Shown in pieces: positions 561 through 19,057 of a DNA stretch of 36,232 nucleotides. A program made the position numbers and the translations under genes. A model generated the notes under the pieces. The model had not been told where the DNA came from. It saw nothing but the letters and a program-made list of their open reading frames with translations, and did no database searches. The first letter of the stretch is position 1. Each line of letters begins with the position of its first letter. The stretch is from Terrimicrobiaceae bacterium (GTDB lineage: Bacteria > Verrucomicrobiota > Verrucomicrobiia > Chthoniobacterales > Terrimicrobiaceae), in NCBI GenBank assembly GCA_021463905.1, contig JAJTZA010000151.1:1-36232 (forward strand), read 5' to 3'.

Positions 561-1573
561 GCGCGCCCCTGCTGAGCATTGCCGAGCTGAAGGCGCTGGT
601 GCGTGAAACGCTCATGCCCGCACGCATCCACGCTCAGGCCGTCGAAATCCAGCGTCGCGAGTCCTCAAATGGGAAGCCCTTTTACGAGCTTCGGCTGCGC
701 GACGCCGACAGCTCTCTCCTTCTGCGCGCCTGGAATGACACCCCGGCCTTCGCCGCATGCGAGCAGTTGGAAGTGGCTGCTCCGGTCGAGGTGGCCGGCG
801 AGTTTGTCGTCAATGGCTCTTTTGGTCTCGAAGCGCGGCGCTGGGGGCTTCGTGTGTTGAATGATGCGGAAGCCCATGCCCTCTTTGAGAACGGCAATGA
901 ACGCGCGGACGAGACCCTCGGGAGGATTCGTGGGATCATTGCCACGCTTGCCGATCCCCGGCTGAGTGCTCTCTGCGAGGAGTTTTTGCGGGAGTTTGGG
1001 GTGCGCTTTGCCCGGGCCGCCGCCGCGCGCGCCAACCACCACGCACGACGTGGGGGGCTGGCCGAGCACACCCTGCGCATGATGGAGGCGGCCCAGTCGC
1101 TCTGCGCCGCCTACCCGGAATTGAACCGCGATCTCCTGCTGGCAGGAACGCTTCTGCATGACTGCGGGAAACTGTGGGAGACCTGTCCGCCGGAACGCGG
1201 CTTCGACATTCCGCGCGACCTGCGCGGCGAACTCCTTGGCCACATCACCATCGGCATCGAAGTCGTCAATGCCCTGTGGAGGAACCTCCCGCTCGATGAC
1301 TGGAAAAACGCAGTGCCCCCCTCCGAAGCTGTGCGACTGCACCTTCTGCATCTGATCGCAGCCCATCATGGCGCACTCGAATACGGGTCGCCGGTTCTCC
1401 CCAAAACCCCCGAGGCCTTTGCCCTGCACGCCATGGACAACCTCGATGCCCGCATCGAAATGTTCAAGGACGCACAACGGCAGCCGGAGACGGTTCCGGG
1501 CGTCCTGGCATGGTCCCGCCCGCTCAATGTCCATCCAGCGGCCCCGTTGCCCGCTTTTGATGCTCCTTCATGA
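557..1573 (+). CDS. YhaM-like 3'-5' exoribonuclease (OB-fold plus HD domain)
   Basis: This 338-residue protein has an N-terminal OB-fold-like region (about residues 20-100) and a C-terminal HD-type metal phosphohydrolase region. The HD residues are visible as HHARRGGLAEHT, then LLHDCGKLWE (HD pair), GHITIG, and AAHHGALEYGSP followed by HAMDNLDA. This order is typical of the YhaM/CBF1 family, which degrades single-stranded RNA or DNA from the 3' end. Function is inferred from family architecture. The gene is coupled on both sides: ATGA overlap with ispH upstream and with the ABC lipoprotein gene downstream (ATGA at 1570-1573). Confidence 0.85.
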   Translation: MSAPLLSIAELKALVRETLMPARIHAQAVEIQRRESSNGKPFYELRLRDADSSLLLRAWNDTPAFAACEQLEVAAPVEVAGEFVVNGSFGLEARRWGLRVLNDAEAHALFENGNERADETLGRIRGIIATLADPRLSALCEEFLREFGVRFARAAAARANHHARRGGLAEHTLRMMEAAQSLCAAYPELNRDLLLAGTLLHDCGKLWETCPPERGFDIPRDLRGELLGHITIGIEVVNALWRNLPLDDWKNAVPPSEAVRLHLLHLIAAHHGALEYGSPVLPKTPEAFALHAMDNLDARIEMFKDAQRQPETVPGVLAWSRPLNVHPAAPLPAFDAPS

Positions 1574-2751
1574 GCGGACGCAATCACCCCGTTCTGCGCG
1601 GCCTGGCCGTCCTGCTGCTGACAGTACTGTCGGCATGCAAACCTCCGGCTCCCCAAGCGTTTCCCGAGCAGGCACCTGCCCGCGAAAAGAACGCGCTGAC
1701 GGTGGGCGTTCTGTTGCCCTTGAGCGGTGCGCAGGCGTCTTTCGGGACGGATGCCGTGCGCGGTGTTGAGTTGGCTGTGCAGGAGATCAATGCGCGAGGT
1801 GGTGTCTTGGGTCGTCCGTTTCGGATGGAGATTCGCGATACGCGCTCGGAGGAATCCACCACGATTGAGGCGGTCAGAGAGCTGGCTGCGGAGTCCTCCC
1901 TTCCCCTGATTATTGGTGAGATTACCTCGCTGCGAACGAGAGCCGCCGCTCATGAGGCCCAGGCGTTGGGCATCCCATTGCTGGCACCGGCGGCCACACA
2001 ACAAGACCTCACCACGGAAGGAGACGGGATTTTTCGCAGTTGTTATGCGGATCCGTTCCCGGGTGTCGCCATGGCAAAATTCGCGGACTCCCTGGAAGCA
2101 AACCGCGCAGCTGTGCTCGAAGAAGAGAATAACCCCTACAGCAAGGAACTGGCTGATAATTTTGTCGGACAATTCCAGCGGGACGGCGGAACCCTTGTGG
2201 CTCGCGAGACGTTCCAACCCGGAGATCCAAACCTCCGCGAGCGACTGGAGGCGGTCAAAGCCGCCACTCCGGACGTGATCTTTCTCCCAAGCTACTACCC
2301 CGAAGCCGCCGAGGTCGTCCGGACAGCCCGACAACTCGGCATCGAGACTCCATTTTTAGGCGGCGATGGATGGGACTCTCCGGAGTTCCTCAGACAGGCC
2401 GGCACCGGAGCGAAAAATTGCTATTTCTCGAATCATTTTTCCGCCGACAACCGAACGCCGGAAAATGAGGCGTTCATCGTCGCTTTCACTGAGAAATACG
2501 GAGCACCACCCCCTCCCCTGGCTGCGCTGGCTTACGATGCCACCCGCCTGGCCGCAGCCGCCCTGGAAGCCGCACAATCCACCGACCGTGCCGCCGTCCG
2601 CGATGCCCTGGCCGCCACACGCGATTTTCCCGGCGTGACCGGAACGATCAGCTACGGGAGCGAGCGCACCCCTCAGAAACCCGCCATCATTCTCAGCATT
2701 CAGGACGGCCAATTCCGCTACCTGGAAACCGTCCTGCCCGATGCCAATTAA
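1570..2751 (+). CDS. ABC transporter substrate-binding lipoprotein, LivJ / Peripla_BP_6 type
   Basis: This 393-residue protein starts with a lipoprotein signal peptide: basic start, hydrophobic stretch, and lipobox LSAC with Cys at about residue 20. The rest matches the periplasmic type I binding fold used for branched-chain amino acids and related ligands, for example VGVLLPLSGAQASFG, INARGGVLG, GEITS and PDVIFLPSYYPEA. No permease or ATPase genes lie nearby, so the ligand is unknown. The last 24 or so codons lie in a 78-bp segment repeated at 3533-3610, beyond a TA module. Downstream of that second copy the frame would continue with DTRVSKKSGNPIP and stop, whereas here it ends in just one further residue (N). 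The present C-terminus is therefore probably a product of the insertion. Confidence 0.9.
   Translation: MSGRNHPVLRGLAVLLLTVLSACKPPAPQAFPEQAPAREKNALTVGVLLPLSGAQASFGTDAVRGVELAVQEINARGGVLGRPFRMEIRDTRSEESTTIEAVRELAAESSLPLIIGEITSLRTRAAAHEAQALGIPLLAPAATQQDLTTEGDGIFRSCYADPFPGVAMAKFADSLEANRAAVLEEENNPYSKELADNFVGQFQRDGGTLVARETFQPGDPNLRERLEAVKAATPDVIFLPSYYPEAAEVVRTARQLGIETPFLGGDGWDSPEFLRQAGTGAKNCYFSNHFSADNRTPENEAFIVAFTEKYGAPPPPLAALAYDATRLAAAALEAAQSTDRAAVRDALAATRDFPGVTGTISYGSERTPQKPAIILSIQDGQFRYLETVLPDAN
2667..2744. repeat. Direct repeat 1A: 3' end of the ABC lipoprotein gene
   Basis: This 78-bp segment is repeated in the same orientation at 3533-3610 with one mismatch (T2732 versus C3598). It covers the last codons of the lipoprotein gene up to GATGC. 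Imperfect similarity (GGAGCG) extends a little further left. The two copies enclose the vapBC module. Confidence 0.95.
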
Positions 2752-2842: not shown

Positions 2843-3250
2843 TCAATCGAAAGGGTTCAGCACTTCCACGCCAGCATTCCGAAAATCCCTGATATTACGA
2901 GTGACCACAATCAACCCATAATGAAGCGCAGTCGCGGCAATCAGACTGTCCTTTACAGGCATGGCCTTACCTGCCTGCCGAAGATCGGCCAGCAGCCGCG
3001 CCCAGCGCATCCCGATGACGGCGTCCCAGGGGATGCATAAAATGCGCAGCACCACTTGGCTGAACCAGTTTTCCAAGCACCGCTTGCGTCGGCCCGCAGG
3101 CATAAGCAGGATGCCGAATTGAATCTCGCCAAGAATCACGGGATCCACGGCGATCTGCGTCTCATGGTTACGCAACCACGAAATGGCTTTCGCATCTGGC
3201 TGGGGTTTGGTCGCTTCGGCCAACACATTGGCATCCGCCAAGTATTTCAC
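2843..3250 (-). CDS. vapC: VapC-type PIN-domain ribonuclease toxin
   Basis: This 135-residue PIN-domain protein has the acidic metal-binding residues in the usual places: YLADANVL (first Asp), a Glu in the VILGEIQFG segment, and Asp in PVKDSLIAATAL plus the RNIRDF segment near the C-terminus. VapC toxins are Mg2+-dependent endoribonucleases that cut tRNA or rRNA and stop translation. The start is a GTG that overlaps the vapB stop (GTGA at 3247-3250), so the pair is translationally coupled. The module lies antisense to the ABC lipoprotein gene upstream. Confidence 0.93.
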   Translation of the reverse strand: MKYLADANVLAEATKPQPDAKAISWLRNHETQIAVDPVILGEIQFGILLMPAGRRKRCLENWFSQVVLRILCIPWDAVIGMRWARLLADLRQAGKAMPVKDSLIAATALHYGLIVVTRNIRDFRNAGVEVLNPFD

Positions 3251-3477
3251 AAGCTATCGGTGAACTCCGACTGGATCGGGACAAACCAACCTTTCTCCGG
3301 GCAGGAAAGCAGAAAGTCTACTATCCCGCGCTCCGTGCTCGCGGGTTTGCGGATGAGGCGGTATTCCCCTTCCTCGATCCGTTCGATTTCAAATTTCTGC
3401 CCTGACTCGATGCGATCCCGCCGACGGATTGCCGCCGGCAAAACGATCTGGCCTTTCGATGAAATCATTGTGGTCAT
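3247..3477 (-). CDS. vapB: AbrB/MazE-type antitoxin
   Basis: This 76-residue antitoxin has an N-terminal swapped-hairpin AbrB DNA-binding motif (MISSKGQIVLPAAIR). Its acidic, aromatic C-terminal tail (LLSCPEKGWFVP) is typical of the part that wraps around the PIN toxin. It should neutralise the adjacent VapC and repress the operon. A promoter and an inverted repeat lie just ahead of the ATG. The start at 3477 keeps the MTTM N-terminus; a second in-frame ATG lies three codons on. Confidence 0.92.
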   Translation of the reverse strand: MTTMISSKGQIVLPAAIRRRDRIESGQKFEIERIEEGEYRLIRKPASTERGIVDFLLSCPEKGWFVPIQSEFTDSL

Positions 3478-3532: not shown

Positions 3533-3610
3533 CACCCCTCAGAAACCCGCCATCATTCTCAGCATTCAGGACGGCCAATTCCGCTACCTGGAAACCGCCC
3601 TGCCCGATGC
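3533..3610. repeat. Direct repeat 1B: duplicated lipoprotein gene tail
   Basis: This is the second copy of the 78-bp tail (77/78 identical to 2667-2744). It begins about 19 bp beyond the vapBC -35 box. The open frame runs past the repeat as DTRVSKKSGNPIP and stops at 3653, which looks like the ancestral end of the lipoprotein. The reverse-strand gene at 3698 follows. Confidence 0.95.
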
Positions 3611-7597: not shown

Positions 7598-8686
7598 ATG
7601 ACAACTCTGGATGACCCATCGCTGGTGGATCGCGTTCTTGCCGGAGAGCGCATCACAGCCGAGGATGCGCGCACCCTGCACAAGCTTCCGCTCGAGGAAC
7701 TGGGTGCACTCGCCGACCACCGCCGCAACCTCGCAAAAGGGAACGCCTACGACGGACGCGGCAATGACATCGTCACCTACATCGTGGACCGCAATGTCAA
7801 CTACACCAATGTCTGCAATGTGTACTGCAAATTTTGTGCGTTCTATCGAACGGAAAAGCAGCCTGACCATTATGTGCTGACCCTCGGACAAATTGACGAA
7901 AAGCTTGATGAGCTGGCGGCGGCGGGCGGTGTGCAGGTGCTCCTCCAGGGCGGCCACCACCCCAAGCTGGGCATGGATTTCTATCTGACGATGCTGACCC
8001 ACATTCGGGAAAAGTATCCGCAAATCAACGTACATGGATTCAGTCCGCCTGAGTTCAACCACTTTGCGGAGGTCTTCGGGATGCCACTTGTCGAGGTGAT
8101 CTCCCGGTTCCGTGAGGCGGGACTCGGCTCGATCCCCGGCGGCGGCGGAGAAATCCTGGTGGATCGCATCCGCGACCGCATCGCACCGCTCAAGTGCAAG
8201 TCCGACCAATGGCTGGAAGTGATGCGCGTCGCCCACGGCCTCGGCATGCGGTCGAGCGCGACAATGATGTTTGGTCATGTCGAGGCACTCGAGGACCGCA
8301 TCGAACACCTCGAACGCCTGCGCGCAACGCAGGACGAAACCGGTGGTTTCACCGCCTTCATCTGCTGGACATTCCAGCCGGAAAACACGCGCCTGCGCGC
8401 CGAAACGGTCACCTCCGCAGAATACCTCCGCATGCAGGCCATCGCCCGCATCTACCTCGACAATTTCGAGAATGTCCAAAGCTCATGGGTGACCCAGGGC
8501 CCGCGCATCGGACAGGTGGCACTCCGTTATGGAGCCAATGATTTCGGGAGCGTGATGATGGAGGAAAATGTCGTCTCCAGCGCAGGCACCTCCTTCCGGC
8601 TCAACGCCACCGAGATCGAGCGTCTGATCCACGACGCAGGATATGAGCCGCACCGCCGCAGCACATGGTACCAGCTCCTGAACTGA
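7598..8686 (+). CDS. mqnC: Cyclic dehypoxanthine futalosine synthase (radical SAM)
   Basis: MqnC catalyses the radical SAM cyclisation of dehypoxanthine futalosine in the futalosine route to menaquinone. The CNVYCKFC motif (CX3CX2C) binds the 4Fe-4S cluster. LLQGGHHPKLGMDFY and HGFSPPEFNHFA are typical of MqnC rather than its relative MqnE. The protein is 362 residues from the ATG at 7598. A TTG 12 codons upstream overlaps pyrD and is less likely. The last 14 or so codons, the stop and 17 bases beyond it lie in a 61-bp segment repeated at 9298-9358, beyond the BrnTA module. Other mqn genes are not in the window. Confidence 0.94.
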   Translation: MTTLDDPSLVDRVLAGERITAEDARTLHKLPLEELGALADHRRNLAKGNAYDGRGNDIVTYIVDRNVNYTNVCNVYCKFCAFYRTEKQPDHYVLTLGQIDEKLDELAAAGGVQVLLQGGHHPKLGMDFYLTMLTHIREKYPQINVHGFSPPEFNHFAEVFGMPLVEVISRFREAGLGSIPGGGGEILVDRIRDRIAPLKCKSDQWLEVMRVAHGLGMRSSATMMFGHVEALEDRIEHLERLRATQDETGGFTAFICWTFQPENTRLRAETVTSAEYLRMQAIARIYLDNFENVQSSWVTQGPRIGQVALRYGANDFGSVMMEENVVSSAGTSFRLNATEIERLIHDAGYEPHRRSTWYQLLN

Positions 8687-8703
8687 ACCGCGCCGGACGA
8701 CAC
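8643..8703. repeat. Direct repeat 2A: 3' end of mqnC
   Basis: This 61-bp segment runs from ATGAGCCGCACC through the mqnC stop to GACGACAC. It is repeated in the same orientation at 9298-9358 with one mismatch (A8687 versus G9342). The copies enclose the brnT-brnA module almost exactly. Confidence 0.96.
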
Positions 8704-8766
8704 CTCTGGCCCGCACCAACACAGACACAACCAAAACTTGAAAAATCTATTTGACAATCAAGATTC

Positions 8767-9072
8767 GTGGTGGATGTTTGCCGTGTGAGGCGGGAGTTTG
8801 AGTGGGATCAGCTCAAGAGTGTGGTCAATCGCGAGAAGCACGGGATATCGCTCGAGGAGGCGTGCGCACTGTGGGATGGTCCCGTGCTCGAAGTGCGGAG
8901 CCATTATTCACAGGAAAGCAGGCGACTTGCCATTGGTAGAATCGCTGGCAGGTTCTGGACGGCTGTCTTCACGTGGCGGGGCAAAAAAATCCGTCTCATC
9001 AGTGTGCGGCGAAGCCGCGAGAAAGAAAGGAAAGCTTACGATGAAAAAGAAAACGACTGCAGAGAACCTTGA
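8767..9072 (+). CDS. brnT: BrnT-type ribonuclease toxin
   Basis: This protein of about 100 residues has the BrnT signature: FEWDQLKS, NREKHGISLEEA, an IGRIAGRFWTAVFTWRG segment, then IRLISVRRSREKER and a late Tyr. BrnT is a RelE-fold ribonuclease toxin of type II TA systems, found with a BrnA antitoxin. Possible starts are GTG at 8767, 8770 or 8785. The last is closest to the usual BrnT N-terminus and has GGTGGA about ten bases ahead. Unlike most TA pairs the toxin gene comes first, which is normal for brnTA. The gene end overlaps the brnA start (9041). Confidence 0.9.
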   Translation: MVDVCRVRREFEWDQLKSVVNREKHGISLEEACALWDGPVLEVRSHYSQESRRLAIGRIAGRFWTAVFTWRGKKIRLISVRRSREKERKAYDEKENDCREP

Positions 9073-9301
9073 GGCCCGCTTTGATGCTGGCGAAGACGTG
9101 TTGGATTACTTCGACCTTCAGAACGCACAGTGGGGAGGAGCACGTGAGGGCGCGGGGCGCAAGCCCATGTCTGCCAAGTCCCGGCGGGTGCAGATCAGCA
9201 CTTCGGTGTCTCCCGAGACGGCGCGTCGGCTGCGGGCGCGTGCCAAGAAAGCGGGTCTTTCATTGGGTGCCACGCTTGACCTGCTGGCAATCTCCGCATG
9301 A
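9041..9301 (+). CDS. brnA: BrnA-type antitoxin
   Basis: This 86-residue protein is encoded directly behind and overlapping brnT. Its C-terminal half (RRVQISTSVSPETARRLRARAKKAGLS) looks like a ribbon-helix-helix DNA-binding segment, and the N-terminal part is acidic (EARFDAGEDVLDYFD) as in BrnA proteins. It should bind and inhibit BrnT and repress the operon. AAAGGA lies eight bases before the ATG. The stop codon (9299-9301) overlaps the first bases of repeat copy 2B, so the module ends exactly where the duplicated mqnC tail begins. Confidence 0.85.
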   Translation: MKKKTTAENLEARFDAGEDVLDYFDLQNAQWGGAREGAGRKPMSAKSRRVQISTSVSPETARRLRARAKKAGLSLGATLDLLAISA

Positions 9302-9358
9302 GCCGCACCGCCGCAGCACATGGTACCAGCTCCTGAACTGAGCCGCGCCGGACGACAC
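9298..9358. repeat. Direct repeat 2B: duplicated mqnC tail
   Basis: This second copy of the 61-bp mqnC tail (60/61 identical to 8643-8703) lies between brnA and the next gene, whose GTG start is two bases after the repeat. Without the insert, mqnC and the nucleotidyltransferase gene would be about 22 bp apart, as in an ordinary operon. Confidence 0.96.
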
Positions 9359-9360
9359 TC

Positions 9361-10680
9361 GTGAGCACTCTCGAACGTGGAGCTTTGCAGGTGGTGCGGC
9401 GTCTGCGCGCTTCCGGCTATCAGGCTCTCTACGCAGGGGGATGCGCACGCGATACACTCCTCGGAAAGACGCCTTCCGATATTGACATCGCCACCGATGC
9501 GACGCCGGAACGCGTCTGCGAACTCTTCAACCGCACCGTGGCCGTGGGCGCGCACTTTGGAGTCATCATCGTGCTTCAAGGCGCGGAATCCTACGAAGTG
9601 GCCACCTTCCGCAACGACGGACGCTATGGAGACGGACGCCGCCCCGAGACGGTCAGTTTCTCGGATGCCCGCAACGACGCCCTCCGGCGCGACTTTACCG
9701 TCAATGGTCTTTTTTTGGATCCGGAGACGCGGGAGGTGGTGGACTATGTCGGCGGACGGGCGGACCTGGAGGCGAAAATCCTGCGCGCAATCGGCGATCC
9801 GGCCACCCGATTTTCCGAAGACCGCCTGCGGCTGCTGCGCGGCGTCCGGCTGGCCGCTTCGCTCGGCTTTGTCATCGAGGAGCGCACCTGGGAGGCCCTG
9901 TGCGCGGCAGCACCAGCCATCCGCGAGGTCAGTGCCGAGCGCATCCGCGATGAGCTGACGAAAATTTTCACCGCCCCGACGCGGGCGCGAGGGCTGGACC
10001 TGTTGGATGAAAGCGGCCTGCTCGAAATCCTCCTGCCGGATATTGCCGCGCTCAAGGGCTGCGAGCAGCCTCCAGAGTTTCACCCCGAGGGAGATGTTTT
10101 CCAGCACACGCGGCTCATGCTCGACCTGCTTGGCCAATCGGTCAGCCGCACGCTGGCCTTCGCCACCCTCCTGCACGACGTCGGAAAACCCGTCTGCGCT
10201 TTTCGCGATCCGGAGGGGCGCATCCGCTTCAACGGCCATGAGCATGTGGGCGCAGACATGGCCGAGCGCATCCTTCGCGGGTTGCGCTTCTCGAACGAGA
10301 CCATCCGCGCCGTCGTGGAAATGGTGCGCCACCACATGGCCTTCAAAGACACTCCGCAAATGCGCACGTCCCGTCTGCGGCGGTTCATGGCCAGGGAAAC
10401 GTTTCCGGAAGAACTCGAGTTGCACCGTGTGGATTGCCTCGGCAGTCATGCCCAGCTCGACATCCACCGCTTCCTGCTGGCCAAGCAAAAGGAATTTGCC
10501 GACGAACCGGTCATCCCCCCGCGTCTCGTCCGCGGCGACGACCTCCTCGAGCGCGGCATGAAGCCCGGCCCGCGTTTCCGCGAAATCCTCGATGCCATCC
10601 AAACCCGCCAGTTGGAAGGAGAACTCAAAACCCGGGAGGAGGCACTCGAATGGTTGGAGACCCATTATCCTCCGCTCTGA
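9361..10680 (+). CDS. CCA-adding enzyme / poly(A) polymerase family nucleotidyltransferase with HD domain
   Basis: This 439-residue class II nucleotidyltransferase adds CCA to tRNA 3' ends, or A-tails to RNA. The head carries YAGGCARDTLLGKTPSDIDIATDA with the DxD metal site, ALRRDFTVNGLF, and FSEDRLRLLRGVRLAASLGF. The C-terminal part has an HD domain (QHTRLMLDLL, ATLLHDVGKPV, and HEHVGADMAERIL). CCA addition and poly(A) addition cannot be told apart by eye. The GTG at 9361 follows repeat copy 2B directly, and no clear Shine-Dalgarno is seen there. Before the TA insertion it probably followed mqnC in one operon. Confidence 0.93.
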   Translation: MSTLERGALQVVRRLRASGYQALYAGGCARDTLLGKTPSDIDIATDATPERVCELFNRTVAVGAHFGVIIVLQGAESYEVATFRNDGRYGDGRRPETVSFSDARNDALRRDFTVNGLFLDPETREVVDYVGGRADLEAKILRAIGDPATRFSEDRLRLLRGVRLAASLGFVIEERTWEALCAAAPAIREVSAERIRDELTKIFTAPTRARGLDLLDESGLLEILLPDIAALKGCEQPPEFHPEGDVFQHTRLMLDLLGQSVSRTLAFATLLHDVGKPVCAFRDPEGRIRFNGHEHVGADMAERILRGLRFSNETIRAVVEMVRHHMAFKDTPQMRTSRLRRFMARETFPEELELHRVDCLGSHAQLDIHRFLLAKQKEFADEPVIPPRLVRGDDLLERGMKPGPRFREILDAIQTRQLEGELKTREEALEWLETHYPPL

Positions 10681-11809: not shown

Positions 11810-12187
11810 TCAGGGTCGAATAATTTGTGCATCTGGAATGCCAGTATCAAAGGTGGCAACGGTCAAATGGTTTTGAGAGGCCAGTTGCGTCAGATAGGCG
11901 TCAGAGGTTCGCGCTGCGGCTGTAGCCCAATCCGGCAGGCGGGGAGAAGGCGCATCGGCAATAAAGCCGCCCACTTGCTTTTTGATGGCTGCAAGTGCTT
12001 CTTGCGCCTCTTTTAAGGAGTATCCGAATACCTGCATGGAAATGCGGAGAAAGCCCAGTTCACTGTGTGCACAAGTTCTCAGGCTGCTCAGCTTTGTTCG
12101 GGCCGCCCAGGCATGGAAGGCCGTGTGATGAGGAGAACGGCGGTGTTGCCATGCCAGCAGCGCATTGACATCGAGCAAATATTTCAC
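11810..12187 (-). CDS. VapC-type PIN-domain toxin
   Basis: This 125-residue PIN protein contains KYLLDVNALLAW (first Asp), CAHSELGFLR (Glu), SDAYLTQLA (third acidic residue) and ATFDTGI (fourth). It is a likely Mg2+-dependent endoribonuclease toxin. The GTG start at 12187 overlaps the antitoxin stop (GTGA), the same coupling as in the vapBC pair at 2843-3477, although the antitoxins are unrelated. The frame and active-site residues look intact, unlike most genes in this accessory region. Confidence 0.9.
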   Translation of the reverse strand: MKYLLDVNALLAWQHRRSPHHTAFHAWAARTKLSSLRTCAHSELGFLRISMQVFGYSLKEAQEALAAIKKQVGGFIADAPSPRLPDWATAAARTSDAYLTQLASQNHLTVATFDTGIPDAQIIRP

Positions 12188-12423
12188 GGGAAATCAGCCA
12201 GGGCGGCGCGAATTTCCTCATCGGTGACCTGTGGGCCGGGGGAGGCGTCGTAGGGCAAGCCGGAGACCGGATGTGTTTTCGTCACGACTTTGCGGCGAGC
12301 CGGGGATTCCTGGAGAACGGATTTGCGCAGAAAGGCCGAGAGGGATTTCGCCTTGGCGGAGTGCGCCCTGGCACGAATGATACGAGCCTCCTCATCGGTG
12401 ACCTTAAAAGTAAGAACCGGCAT
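12184..12423 (-). CDS. Ribbon-helix-helix-type antitoxin partner of the adjacent PIN toxin
   Basis: This 79-residue protein starts MPVLTFKVTDEEARIIRARA and then SLSAFLRKSVL, a pattern expected of a ribbon-helix-helix or relaxosome-like DNA-binding fold. The C-terminal half (TKTHPVSGLPYDASPGPQVT) would contact the toxin. The ATG at 12423 is preferred over a longer frame to 12813, because it is preceded directly by a palindromic operator and a promoter-like sequence, and the longer part overlaps unrelated relics. Confidence 0.8.
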   Translation of the reverse strand: MPVLTFKVTDEEARIIRARAHSAKAKSLSAFLRKSVLQESPARRKVVTKTHPVSGLPYDASPGPQVTDEEIRAALADFP

Positions 12424-12424
12424 G

Positions 12425-12441
12425 GGTATTAATTTAATACC
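12425..12441. promoter_or_regulatory. Operator palindrome of the second vapBC-type module
   Basis: GGTATTAA-T-TTAATACC is a perfect 8-bp inverted repeat with a one-base centre, two bases upstream of the antitoxin ATG. On the minus strand TTGACG lies 17 bases ahead of TAAATT, which overlaps the palindrome, so repression by the antitoxin is likely. Confidence 0.7.
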
Positions 12442-12680
12442 GGGATGGTGGATCGTCAAGATCCTCTTGAGCCGTGCAGAGCCTGCGCAACCAGGCCGTC
12501 CCTGATCGGTTCGGGCACTCTCGCCCCCCACCCCTCCCGCAGGGCAGGGGGATTTTATCTCCTGCCAATGGCTCGCAAATTTTTTATTCTGGTAGAAGGA
12601 GCGGTTCATGCCTTCGCTCAATTGGATCGGAAAAAAGCCGTCATTAGTCATCACCTGGAAGTTCCCTTTCGGCTGTTGAA
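12442..12680. other. Intergenic stretch without a recognised gene
   Basis: Nothing coding is recognised here. It holds the upstream promoter bases of the antitoxin gene. It also holds a hairpin with GGCAGG/CCTGCC ends near 12541-12566, embedded in a C-rich then AT-rich stretch. Confidence 0.5.
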
Positions 12681-12682
12681 CT

Positions 12683-13091
12683 ACTCTGTCTGTCTGAATG
12701 CCACGAGGCAGGGTCGCCGGTTGTGCCGCCCCTCGATCACCGTGAATTGGTTCACCGCCAGCCAGTCGTTCGTCCACACATCGGAGAAATCTATCAGACG
12801 GACGATTTCCCATCGCGCAGCAGATTGTGAAACGCCCGGTTCGTCTGCACCAGCGACGGCGTCGCCACGCGCAGCACTTTGCGCAACGCCTCCTCCCGCG
12901 CTTCCTCGGGAATGCTGGGATTCAACCGCCGCAAAGCCTCGCGCAACCGCCCCACTAGCACCACCTCGCCAAACGAATCGCTCTGCCGCCGGCTCGCCCG
13001 GTGCCAACTGCGGCTCGTGTCCGAGGTCGTAGCCCAGCTCCCCGAACCACGTCAGGGCGGTGTCTTCGACGATGGATTTGGTGAGGCTTAT
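12683..13091 (-). pseudogene. hsdR: N-terminal relic of a type I restriction endonuclease subunit (HsdR)
   Basis: Read across frames, the segment gives SLTKSIVEDTALTWFGELGY, then APGEPAAER. After a frame change it reads DSFGEVVLVGRLREAL and EEAREEALRKVLRVATPSLV, then after another LIDFSDVWTNDWLAVNQFTV and EGRHNRRP. These are successive blocks of the HsdR N-terminus. There are at least two frameshifts, a short deletion, and no motor domain. The start codon also seems lost: the expected ATGAGC is ATAAGC at 13091-13086. It directly follows the hipA relic on the same strand. The gene is dead. Confidence 0.8.
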
Positions 13092-15773: not shown

Positions 15774-15795
15774 AAAATGGGTGTTAACCAAGACG
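15774..15795. repeat. 22-bp motif at the broken end of SRAP copy 1
   Basis: On the minus strand the core reads CTTGGTTAACACCCATTTT. The same 22 bp, with one mismatch, occurs at 19598-19619, and a shorter version (CTTGGTTAG) lies at the right edge of the IS. It may be the end of a lost mobile element. Confidence 0.6.
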
Positions 15796-15990
15796 AGCCA
15801 CGGTTTCCCCACGGGCATTAAAAAGGGGGCGACTCAGCGTGCCGTCCCCTCGCCGGATTACTGGCAACCCCCAGGTGGCGCACTGGGCTTTCCTGCCCGG
15901 GCCATGTGCAACTCGCCGCACGATGGGAATGATCTCCGTGGGAGCCACGTTGAAACGAGCGTCCACGAATCCCTCCGGTGCCCTCATCAA
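15784..15990 (-). pseudogene. SRAP/YedK-type peptidase fragment, copy 1
   Basis: The frame reads GFVDARFNVAPTEIIPIVR, then CATWGLP and NARGETVAR, the N-terminal third of an SRAP (HMCES/YedK) protein, which crosslinks to abasic sites in single-stranded DNA. The start with catalytic Cys2 (MCGR) is missing here. The 3' end stops at LG plus a stop made by CTTGGTTAAC. It is about 90% identical over about 200 bp to copy 2 (18806-19057) and breaks at the same codon. Confidence 0.75.
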
Positions 15991-17348: not shown

Positions 17349-18805
17349 CCAATACTGTTCATTTAGTAGATTTTTTTGTGGATTGTTCTCGTCTCCCTGC
17401 ACATAGTCGGCCCACGCGATCTTCGGATTGGATAGCCGGACATCTTTCGTTTGAACCCGCGTGGCCCAAATCGTCCCTTGCGAGGCGGGATCCTCTCGTG
17501 GAGAATTTCTCTCACTACGGTTTCCATCCAAGGTGCGATGGCCTCAGGGGGAAAGGGCTGGCATGGCTGCCAGTTTTCGACGAATCACCCGAATGGCGTG
17601 AGTGAAAGACAATCGATCCGGGTCGAGGTTTTGTCGTAAGGCCGCCTCGTTCATCAGGGATCGAACGGCCCGATGGGCCAGCATCATGCCGTAAAACTCC
17701 TGCTCGACGAGTTCAGGAGTCTTGCTGCGAAGGACGACCTGACCGCCACGCATGTGAGTTTTAAATTCATCGAGGGTCACTTCAATTTCCCAGCGTTCCG
17801 GGTAGAGAGCAGCCAGTTCGTGAGCGGGATACTTTTCCGCATCAGTCAGTGTGGTGATCAAACGGTAGAGCGGCTCGGCATCTTCGACACCCTCAAGTTG
17901 ATATTCAATAACCCGCACGACGAGTCCATTGCGCTTTTTCCGTTTGTCTTTTTCGGTGGGATAGACCCCGGACAGGTAAGAGCCATCAGCAAGAACTTCC
18001 TCGACGGGCAAGTCCGCATTGGATCGCGTGCGCCATAACAGCGATGCCCCGGTGGAACGCGCTTTTTGCCACAGCGAGAAGCTCGGATAGAGCCGGTCTG
18101 CCAGGCACAACATGCCCCTACACAGATGCTCGACGAGTTCAGTCGCAAGAGTCAGCTCGTGGGTGGCATAGGAACCCATGCGCACCGCGAAAATCGCATG
18201 AGGTCCATTCTCGCAAAGCGCAACGAAGCGAAGTTGAGGAAAAGCCGACTGGCCCCGGCTCGATTCCTGGCGACCGAACCGGGCGAGGTTCTCCGCCGTA
18301 TCGGGAACATCAAGAGTGCTCCCGTCAATGGAAACCAGGCGCAAACCTCGGTAAAAAGCTCCCGGCTGGCCCTCCGTTGCCATCGGAACTGCACTCTCCT
18401 GCCACAAAGCCCGTAACGGAGCCGCTCCCAATCGTGTGCGCGCTTGGGAGATCGCCGCCTTCCCCGCCGCTTTGATTCCCGTGGAAGCTCCACCCAACCA
18501 CTGAAGGCCCTCAACCAGTGAGCGCAGAACTTCCCCGGTGGAAACCGCCATGAACAGACCAAGGGCGATCACGTAATGAACCAGCGCCTCAGCAGGTAAA
18601 TCTCTCACCCGCCTACTCTGGAGTCCCATCCTCACAAGGATGCTTCGTATCCGCTCGCGCGGATATGTCCGGGCCAGAACGCCGATGCTCATGTGCTCGG
18701 CGATCCGACCCCCAACGCTCATTGTCATTGCGTTTCGTGCCATGGCAAAGCCGATCATGCCCAGAGCAAACCCTGGTAGCAATACTTAAGTGAACAGTAT
18801 TGGGG
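17347..18805 (-). mobile_element. IS4-family insertion sequence
   Basis: The element is about 1.46 kb. Terminal inverted repeats are visible: CCCCAATACTGTTCATTTA at 17347-17365, and its complement with one change (C for T at position 16) at 18787-18805. GTTA precedes both ends. It encodes a single DDE transposase on the minus strand. I find no clear target duplication (TTAA left, CTAA right). The right end lies directly against SRAP copy 2. Confidence 0.85.
17363..18782 (-). pseudogene. IS4-family transposase, frameshifted near the C-terminus
   Basis: The uninterrupted frame (17544-18782, 412 residues) has the DDE residues in SIDGSTLDVPDT and CLADRLYP. It also has the IS4 YREK block YPERWEIEVTLDEFK (Y-x2-R-x3-E-x6-K). 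It stops at ALSP. In the next frame the sequence continues smoothly as EAIAPWMETVVREIL and ends KKIY at 17363, close to the left terminus. The shift falls at a run of five G (plus strand 17547-17551), consistent with one inserted base. Activity may be lost unless the tail is dispensable. The likely start is the ATG at 18782 or, by family likeness, 18743. Confidence 0.85.
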
Positions 18806-19057
18806 CTAACCAAGGCGGAACACGGTTTCCCCACGGGTATTAAAAAGGTGGCGACTCAGGGTGCCGTCCCGTCGCTGGATTGCTGGCAACCCCCAGGTGG
18901 CGCACTGGGCTTTCCTGCCCGGGCTATGTGCAGCTTGCCGCAAGATTGGGATGCTCTCCGTGGGAGCCACGTTAAAACGACCGTCCACGAATCCCTCCGG
19001 TGCCTCGACTCCAAACCGCCCCCAAGGGATATTGGCAAAATTGGTTCTGCCGCACAT
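18806..19057 (-). pseudogene. SRAP/YedK-type peptidase fragment, copy 2, with intact N-terminus
   Basis: The 83-residue frame starts MCGRTNFA with the catalytic Cys2 of the SRAP family, and contains RFNVAPTESIPI, ATWGLP and NTRGETVFR, then ends LG-stop at the IS border. Full-length SRAP proteins have about 200 residues or more, so the Glu and His active-site residues are absent. The break coincides with the IS right end. About 90% identical over about 200 bp to copy 1 at 15784-15990. Confidence 0.8.

Follow-up and report, generated by a model that had tools for sequence, protein, structure and literature searches.

A BrnTA toxin-antitoxin pair between copies of a duplicated mqnC end in a Terrimicrobiaceae genome, and long unrelated direct repeats around other toxin-antitoxin pairs

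The window, the whole stretch of 36,232 nucleotides analyzed here, is contig 59 of a draft genome (2.04 Mb, 72% complete, 157 contigs) whose nearest relatives belong to the Chthoniobacterales/Terrimicrobiaceae of the Verrucomicrobiota. A single brnT-brnA pair lies in it between mqnC, which is 79 to 83% identical to mqnC genes of the same family, and the CCA tRNA nucleotidyltransferase gene (Table 1). The pair is enclosed by direct repeats of 61 bp, each made up of the mqnC 3' end, stop codon included, and 17 bp downstream. In a repeat search of the window, the two copies were identical at 60 of 61 positions (98%), with a start-to-start distance of 655 bp; the sole mismatch, A/G, falls on the first base 3' of the mqnC stop. 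From the base composition, about 1e-25 such repeat pairs would be expected. The sequence-only reading had described this duplication, and it was reproduced base for base. The same reading had the stop codon of brnA overlapping the first bases of the second copy and the next gene starting two bases past it; both hold, the TGA at 9299-9301 being bases 2 to 4 of copy 2 and the nucleotidyltransferase gene starting with GTG at 9361.

Table 1. Features of the two repeat-enclosed toxin-antitoxin pairs and their host genes in the window
Feature	Position	Strand	Evidence
ABC-type periplasmic binding protein gene, stop now from insert	1570..2751	+	PF13458 195 bits
First copy of the 78-bp repeat in the second case (end of ORF 1570-2751)	2667..2744	+	repeat scan
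vapC-type PIN toxin in second insert	2843..3250	-	PF01850 39.2 bits; NF047863 E 4.9e-11, below cut-off
AbrB/MazE-type antitoxin in second insert	3247..3477	-	PF04014 27.9 bits; TIGR01439 39.9 bits
Second case, repeat copy 2, 77/78	3533..3610	+	repeat scan
mqnC (cyclic dehypoxanthinyl futalosine synthase), host of duplicated 3' end	7598..8686	+	longest ORF starts 7562; TIGR03699 MqnC 473 bits; PF19288, PF04055
Repeat copy 1 (mqnC tail, stop, 17 bp beyond)	8643..8703	+	repeat search
Inserted segment proper, 594 bp	8704..9297	+	between repeat copies
brnT toxin, 101 aa, GTG start (later GTG 8785 also possible)	8767..9072	+	PF04365 75.9 bits
brnA antitoxin, 86 aa, ATG 9041, stop from repeat copy 2	9041..9301	+	NF047399 31 bits, below cut-off; ribbon-helix-helix similarity
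Repeat copy 2, 60/61 vs copy 1	9298..9358	+	repeat search
CCA tRNA nucleotidyltransferase gene, downstream neighbor	9361..10680	+	PF01743, PF12627, PF13735, PF01966; NF009814

The assignment of BrnT to its toxin family is secure, the PF04365 score being more than twice the cut-off of 34.5 bits, and the protein is similar to the solved toxin 7vd7_A (E = 4.6e-6). The match of BrnA was weaker (NF047399, 31.1 bits, E = 2e-7, cut-off 60 bits), and judged by this score the predicted antitoxin is a divergent family member; its position downstream of and overlapping brnT, its size and its ribbon-helix-helix type all fit an antitoxin. The pair shares with known BrnT/BrnA type II systems the BrnT_toxin family, the toxin gene in first place and a small overlapping predicted antitoxin gene of the ribbon-helix-helix type. 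Unlike them, it has a BrnA below the NCBIfam cut-off and a stop codon taken from the duplicated target. No near-identical second brnTA that could have been a local source was found in the genome, the other two BrnT proteins being only 37 to 48% identical, and no donor copy of the insert was found.

The G+C content of the inserted segment is 0.57, versus 0.60 and 0.64 in the flanks. The TA pair fills the 594 bp, in which no transposase was found, and inverted repeats are also absent from its ends. A promoter and terminator scan of the 655-bp unit gave nothing above chance. An insertion sequence or transposon was considered and rejected on the lack of transposase and terminal inverted repeats and on the length of the duplication, 61 bp here and variable between cases.

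A scan of the whole window detected a second, similar structure. A 78-bp direct repeat, with 77 of 78 positions identical and copies 866 bp apart, corresponds to the end of a periplasmic binding-protein gene. Between its copies lie a PIN toxin gene and an AbrB/MazE-type antitoxin gene, both in the orientation opposite to that of the host gene. At copy 1, the host frame ends on a stop derived from the insert (..PDAN*); at copy 2, it stays open as far as ..DTRVSKKSGNPIP*, which is presumably where the host gene originally ended. The window contains three TA pairs in its 36 kb, the remaining one, a minus-strand PIN toxin with its antitoxin (11810-12813), lacking flanking repeats. Elsewhere in the window, an ORF for an IS4-type transposase (17544-18782, minus strand) belongs to a region flanked by a 206-nt repeat (89% identical; 15777-15982 and 18799-19004), and the 22-nt motif AAAATGGGTGTTAACCAAGRCG is present at both 15774 and 19598.

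Direct repeats of at least 24 nt with a spacing of 250 to 4000 bp were surveyed in the window and 60 further stretches of the genome, 714,567 bp in all, and eight were detected. Only four were at least 96% identical and less than 1.5 kb apart, and all four enclose a TA pair, one of them weakly recognized. These four, 61 and 78 bp in the window, 31 bp on contig C18 and 27 bp on contig C117, share neither sequence nor length, and three consist of the coding end of a local gene. The other four repeats are weaker or wider, and one surrounds a transposase. On C18 (6075-6774 of stretch L065), a second BrnTA lies inside a 31-bp duplication (30/31) of the tail of another gene. On C117 (8095-9296 of stretch L122), a perfect 27-bp repeat surrounds an AbiEii-like nucleotidyltransferase gene together with a small partner gene; the toxin-like gene ends on a stop supplied by the repeat, like brnA in the window. 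With an AbiEii score of 17 bits, below the cut-off, this is a likely TA pair. In control sequence of 864 kb (630 kb plus 234 kb around the nucleotidyltransferase and mqnC genes of relatives), one direct repeat of at least 24 nt and at least 90% identity was detected, with copies 2.8 kb apart. No repeat flanks the genome's third BrnTA, on C145, and 11 of the 12 testable PIN genes of the genome are unflanked, the exception being the VapBC pair of the window.

Across the order, BrnT genes were detected in 97 of the 197 genomes searched. All loci surveyed across these genomes, which are mostly draft metagenome assemblies, were scored by one rule: a repeat of at least 22 nt and at least 88% identity, with copies 300 to 1500 bp apart and one on each side. 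Thirteen of 61 usable BrnT loci were flanked; L236, L258 and L289 were discounted as dispersed repeats, leaving 10 of 61, or about one in six. Flanking repeats were also detected at 2 of 27 PIN loci and 1 of 26 ParE loci. Among the controls, 1 of 28 acetyltransferase loci (L309, a GNAT gene at a dispersed repeat, likewise discounted as a flanked case) and none of 53 core-gene loci were flanked. The difference between BrnT loci and controls (10/61 versus 1/81; Fisher P = 0.001) refers to best-scoring hits in which some genera recur, not to a random sample. The majority of BrnT loci (51/61) are unflanked, and at unflanked TA loci age could have erased the repeats. None of the BrnT loci on eight complete plasmids was flanked.

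The repeats around the flanked loci of the order range from 22 to 183 bp, are mutually unrelated and enclose BrnTA, VapBC or ParE modules. The inserts are 513 to 1332 bp long, usually hold one TA pair and mostly have a lower G+C content than their flanks; no terminal inverted repeats or common end motif were found among them. At the brnTA loci L224 and L280, the repeats are the tails of an aldehyde dehydrogenase gene (112 bp) and a DegT aminotransferase gene (119 bp), and at L262 the tail of a hydrolase gene (40 bp). The 106-bp repeat of a VapBC locus (L394) takes in the start of a reductase-like gene. Duplication is thus not confined to gene ends; the clear cases span a gene boundary and leave the gene whole. 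The description of the insert at mqnC as a single TA module with an added copy of the host-gene tail was supported, and the pattern generalizes to other loci.

Integrons and dif-related elements offer a different origin for such structures. TA pairs are frequent as integron cassettes, and pdif modules of Acinetobacter plasmids can carry BrnTA; both kinds of element resemble the present cases in holding small TA units between direct repeats. A site-specific mobile cassette, either an integron gene cassette or a pdif-type module with the repeat as its recombination site, has a possible example nearby in L229, one of the ten flanked BrnT loci. There (1076-2524), BrnTA and a small membrane protein gene lie between ~110-bp, 99% identical repeats resembling integron attC sites, and by sequence this locus looks like an integron cassette, different in kind from the others. 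The repeats of pdif modules and cassettes are conserved recombination sites, whereas the four of the genome studied here (61, 78, 31 and 27 bp) are unrelated local sequences, three of them coding ends, which argues against site-specific recombination. Neither an integrase nor a shared core was seen, and by sequence comparison the four repeats have no conserved attC-type site in common. An integron cassette was accordingly rejected as the source of the unit at mqnC, and for the window a cassette origin of either kind is largely refuted and highly improbable.

In a draft genome of 157 contigs and 72% completeness, the duplication might also have arisen when two strain variants were joined at an overlap during metagenome assembly. 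The repeat lengths differ, however, each long repeat contains one mismatch, and the reading frames are intact on both sides. The same structure also occurs in other genomes with diverged copies (91 to 96% identical), which no assembler would create. An assembly artefact is thus very hard to sustain as an explanation.

The mqnC tail was duplicated in none of 29 relatives' loci, so the finding that had been named as fatal to the association, a duplicated tail without brnTA in many relatives, did not appear. The uninterrupted junction of mqnC and the nucleotidyltransferase gene was not found in 80 nucleotidyltransferase loci and 58 whole genomes, with no congener among them; the two genes lie apart in every relative examined, all of other genera. 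Empty sites were detected at two other loci. The aldehyde dehydrogenase gene of L224 (genome G076) has one tail and no brnTA in 6 of 6 congeners, and for the DegT gene of L280 (genome G079) a lone tail with brnTA absent was likewise seen in 8 of 8. Both comparisons cover the proximal side, the sequence past the distal copy being too diverged to align and the far edge thus unseen. The copies differ at 6 of 112 positions at L224 and 7 of 119 at L280, with mixed polarity at both loci, so that neither indicates which copy is older.

These differing copies bear on a further explanation, homology-anchored import. Here, DNA of a relative already carrying brnTA beside the same gene would have been joined by homology in the tail and illegitimately at the other end, so that the two tails would differ slightly in ancestry. 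Import accounts for the variable repeat length, the missing end motifs and the mismatches between copies at L224 and L280, and the distal copy of L224 is indeed closer to the tail in genome G070 (97%) than to the proximal copy (95%). It requires, however, a donor with the same TA pair at the same gene, which was absent in 14 of 14 congeners at L224 and L280, and the copies in the window differ at only 1 of 61 sites, as local duplication predicts. Import is therefore considered unlikely, though better placed than a cassette or an artefact.

The recurrence of such repeats around TA pairs suggests insertion without a known transposase, with duplication of a long and variable stretch of the target. 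For the 655-bp unit at mqnC, we estimate a probability of roughly 70% that it represents one insertion event with a long, variable target duplication, the module bringing neither transposase nor integrase with it. A single 594-bp BrnTA module would have entered at the mqnC end, and 61 bp of target would have been duplicated at insertion, with the outcome that mqnC kept its full 3' end and the downstream gene its leader. The variable length of the duplications argues against a transposase with a fixed stagger. Two routes may be envisaged: a TA fragment could be captured between two distant staggered breaks that are then filled in, or a replication fork could switch to TA DNA and return slightly upstream.

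Repeats of such length should promote deletion. That only TA-bearing inserts are visible in the genome suggests selective retention. Recombination between the repeats would remove the antitoxin gene and kill or stop the cell, and inserts without a TA pair would collapse back to the empty site; by this analysis, BrnTA is perhaps locked in by addiction. It is tentatively proposed, as an idea somewhat short of even odds, that several unrelated chromosomal TA families spread pair by pair through transposase-free insertion with long duplications, addiction selecting against the repeat-mediated deletion that removes all other inserts of this kind.

A comparable process has been described for restriction-modification (R-M) genes. 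Insertion with long target duplication in H. pylori is attributed to Nobusato et al. (2000) in the article that cites it (PMC1643837), and a review (PMC3874152) gives long, variable target duplications of ~100 bp for some R-M systems and notes that mobility is commonly put down to transport on known mobile elements. Common to both are a gene pair of an addictive class, no transposase, variable duplications around 100 bp and the comparison of filled and empty sites. The present cases differ in their cargo, type II TA pairs (BrnTA, VapBC and ParE-type) of 0.5 to 1.3 kb in Verrucomicrobiota, in duplications of 22 to 183 bp and in several recurrences within one genome. Integrative elements that regenerate the 3' end of the gene they enter likewise leave a gene tail on both sides and the gene intact; here, in contrast, there is no integrase and no fixed attachment site, and the insert is the TA pair alone. 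In a literature search, with many journals outside its reach, long target duplications around TA modules were nowhere described. These comparisons suggest that TA modules are a new cargo for a mechanism known from R-M genes, which would thereby also serve the second major class of addictive gene pairs. The fixation of chromosomal TA modules after horizontal acquisition has been described as not understood (PMC2654758). With a base-resolved footprint, comprising the module, the long duplicated target and an empty site in congeners, insertions can be dated, the mobile unit is delimited to the bare TA pair, and the proposed protection of an insert by addiction from repeat-mediated deletion becomes testable in a laboratory strain.

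Several TA-bearing regions of the order are more complex. In 780 kb of two other genomes, dispersed intergenic repeats dominate and preclude a clean count, and several TA pairs lie between repeats. A TA-rich region of a family member (L423, G004:C38) contains pairs separated by dispersed intergenic repeats, an arrangement that could represent stacked insertions. At L271 and L267, several different direct-repeat pairs are nested or serial around BrnTA, as repeated insertion at one place predicts.
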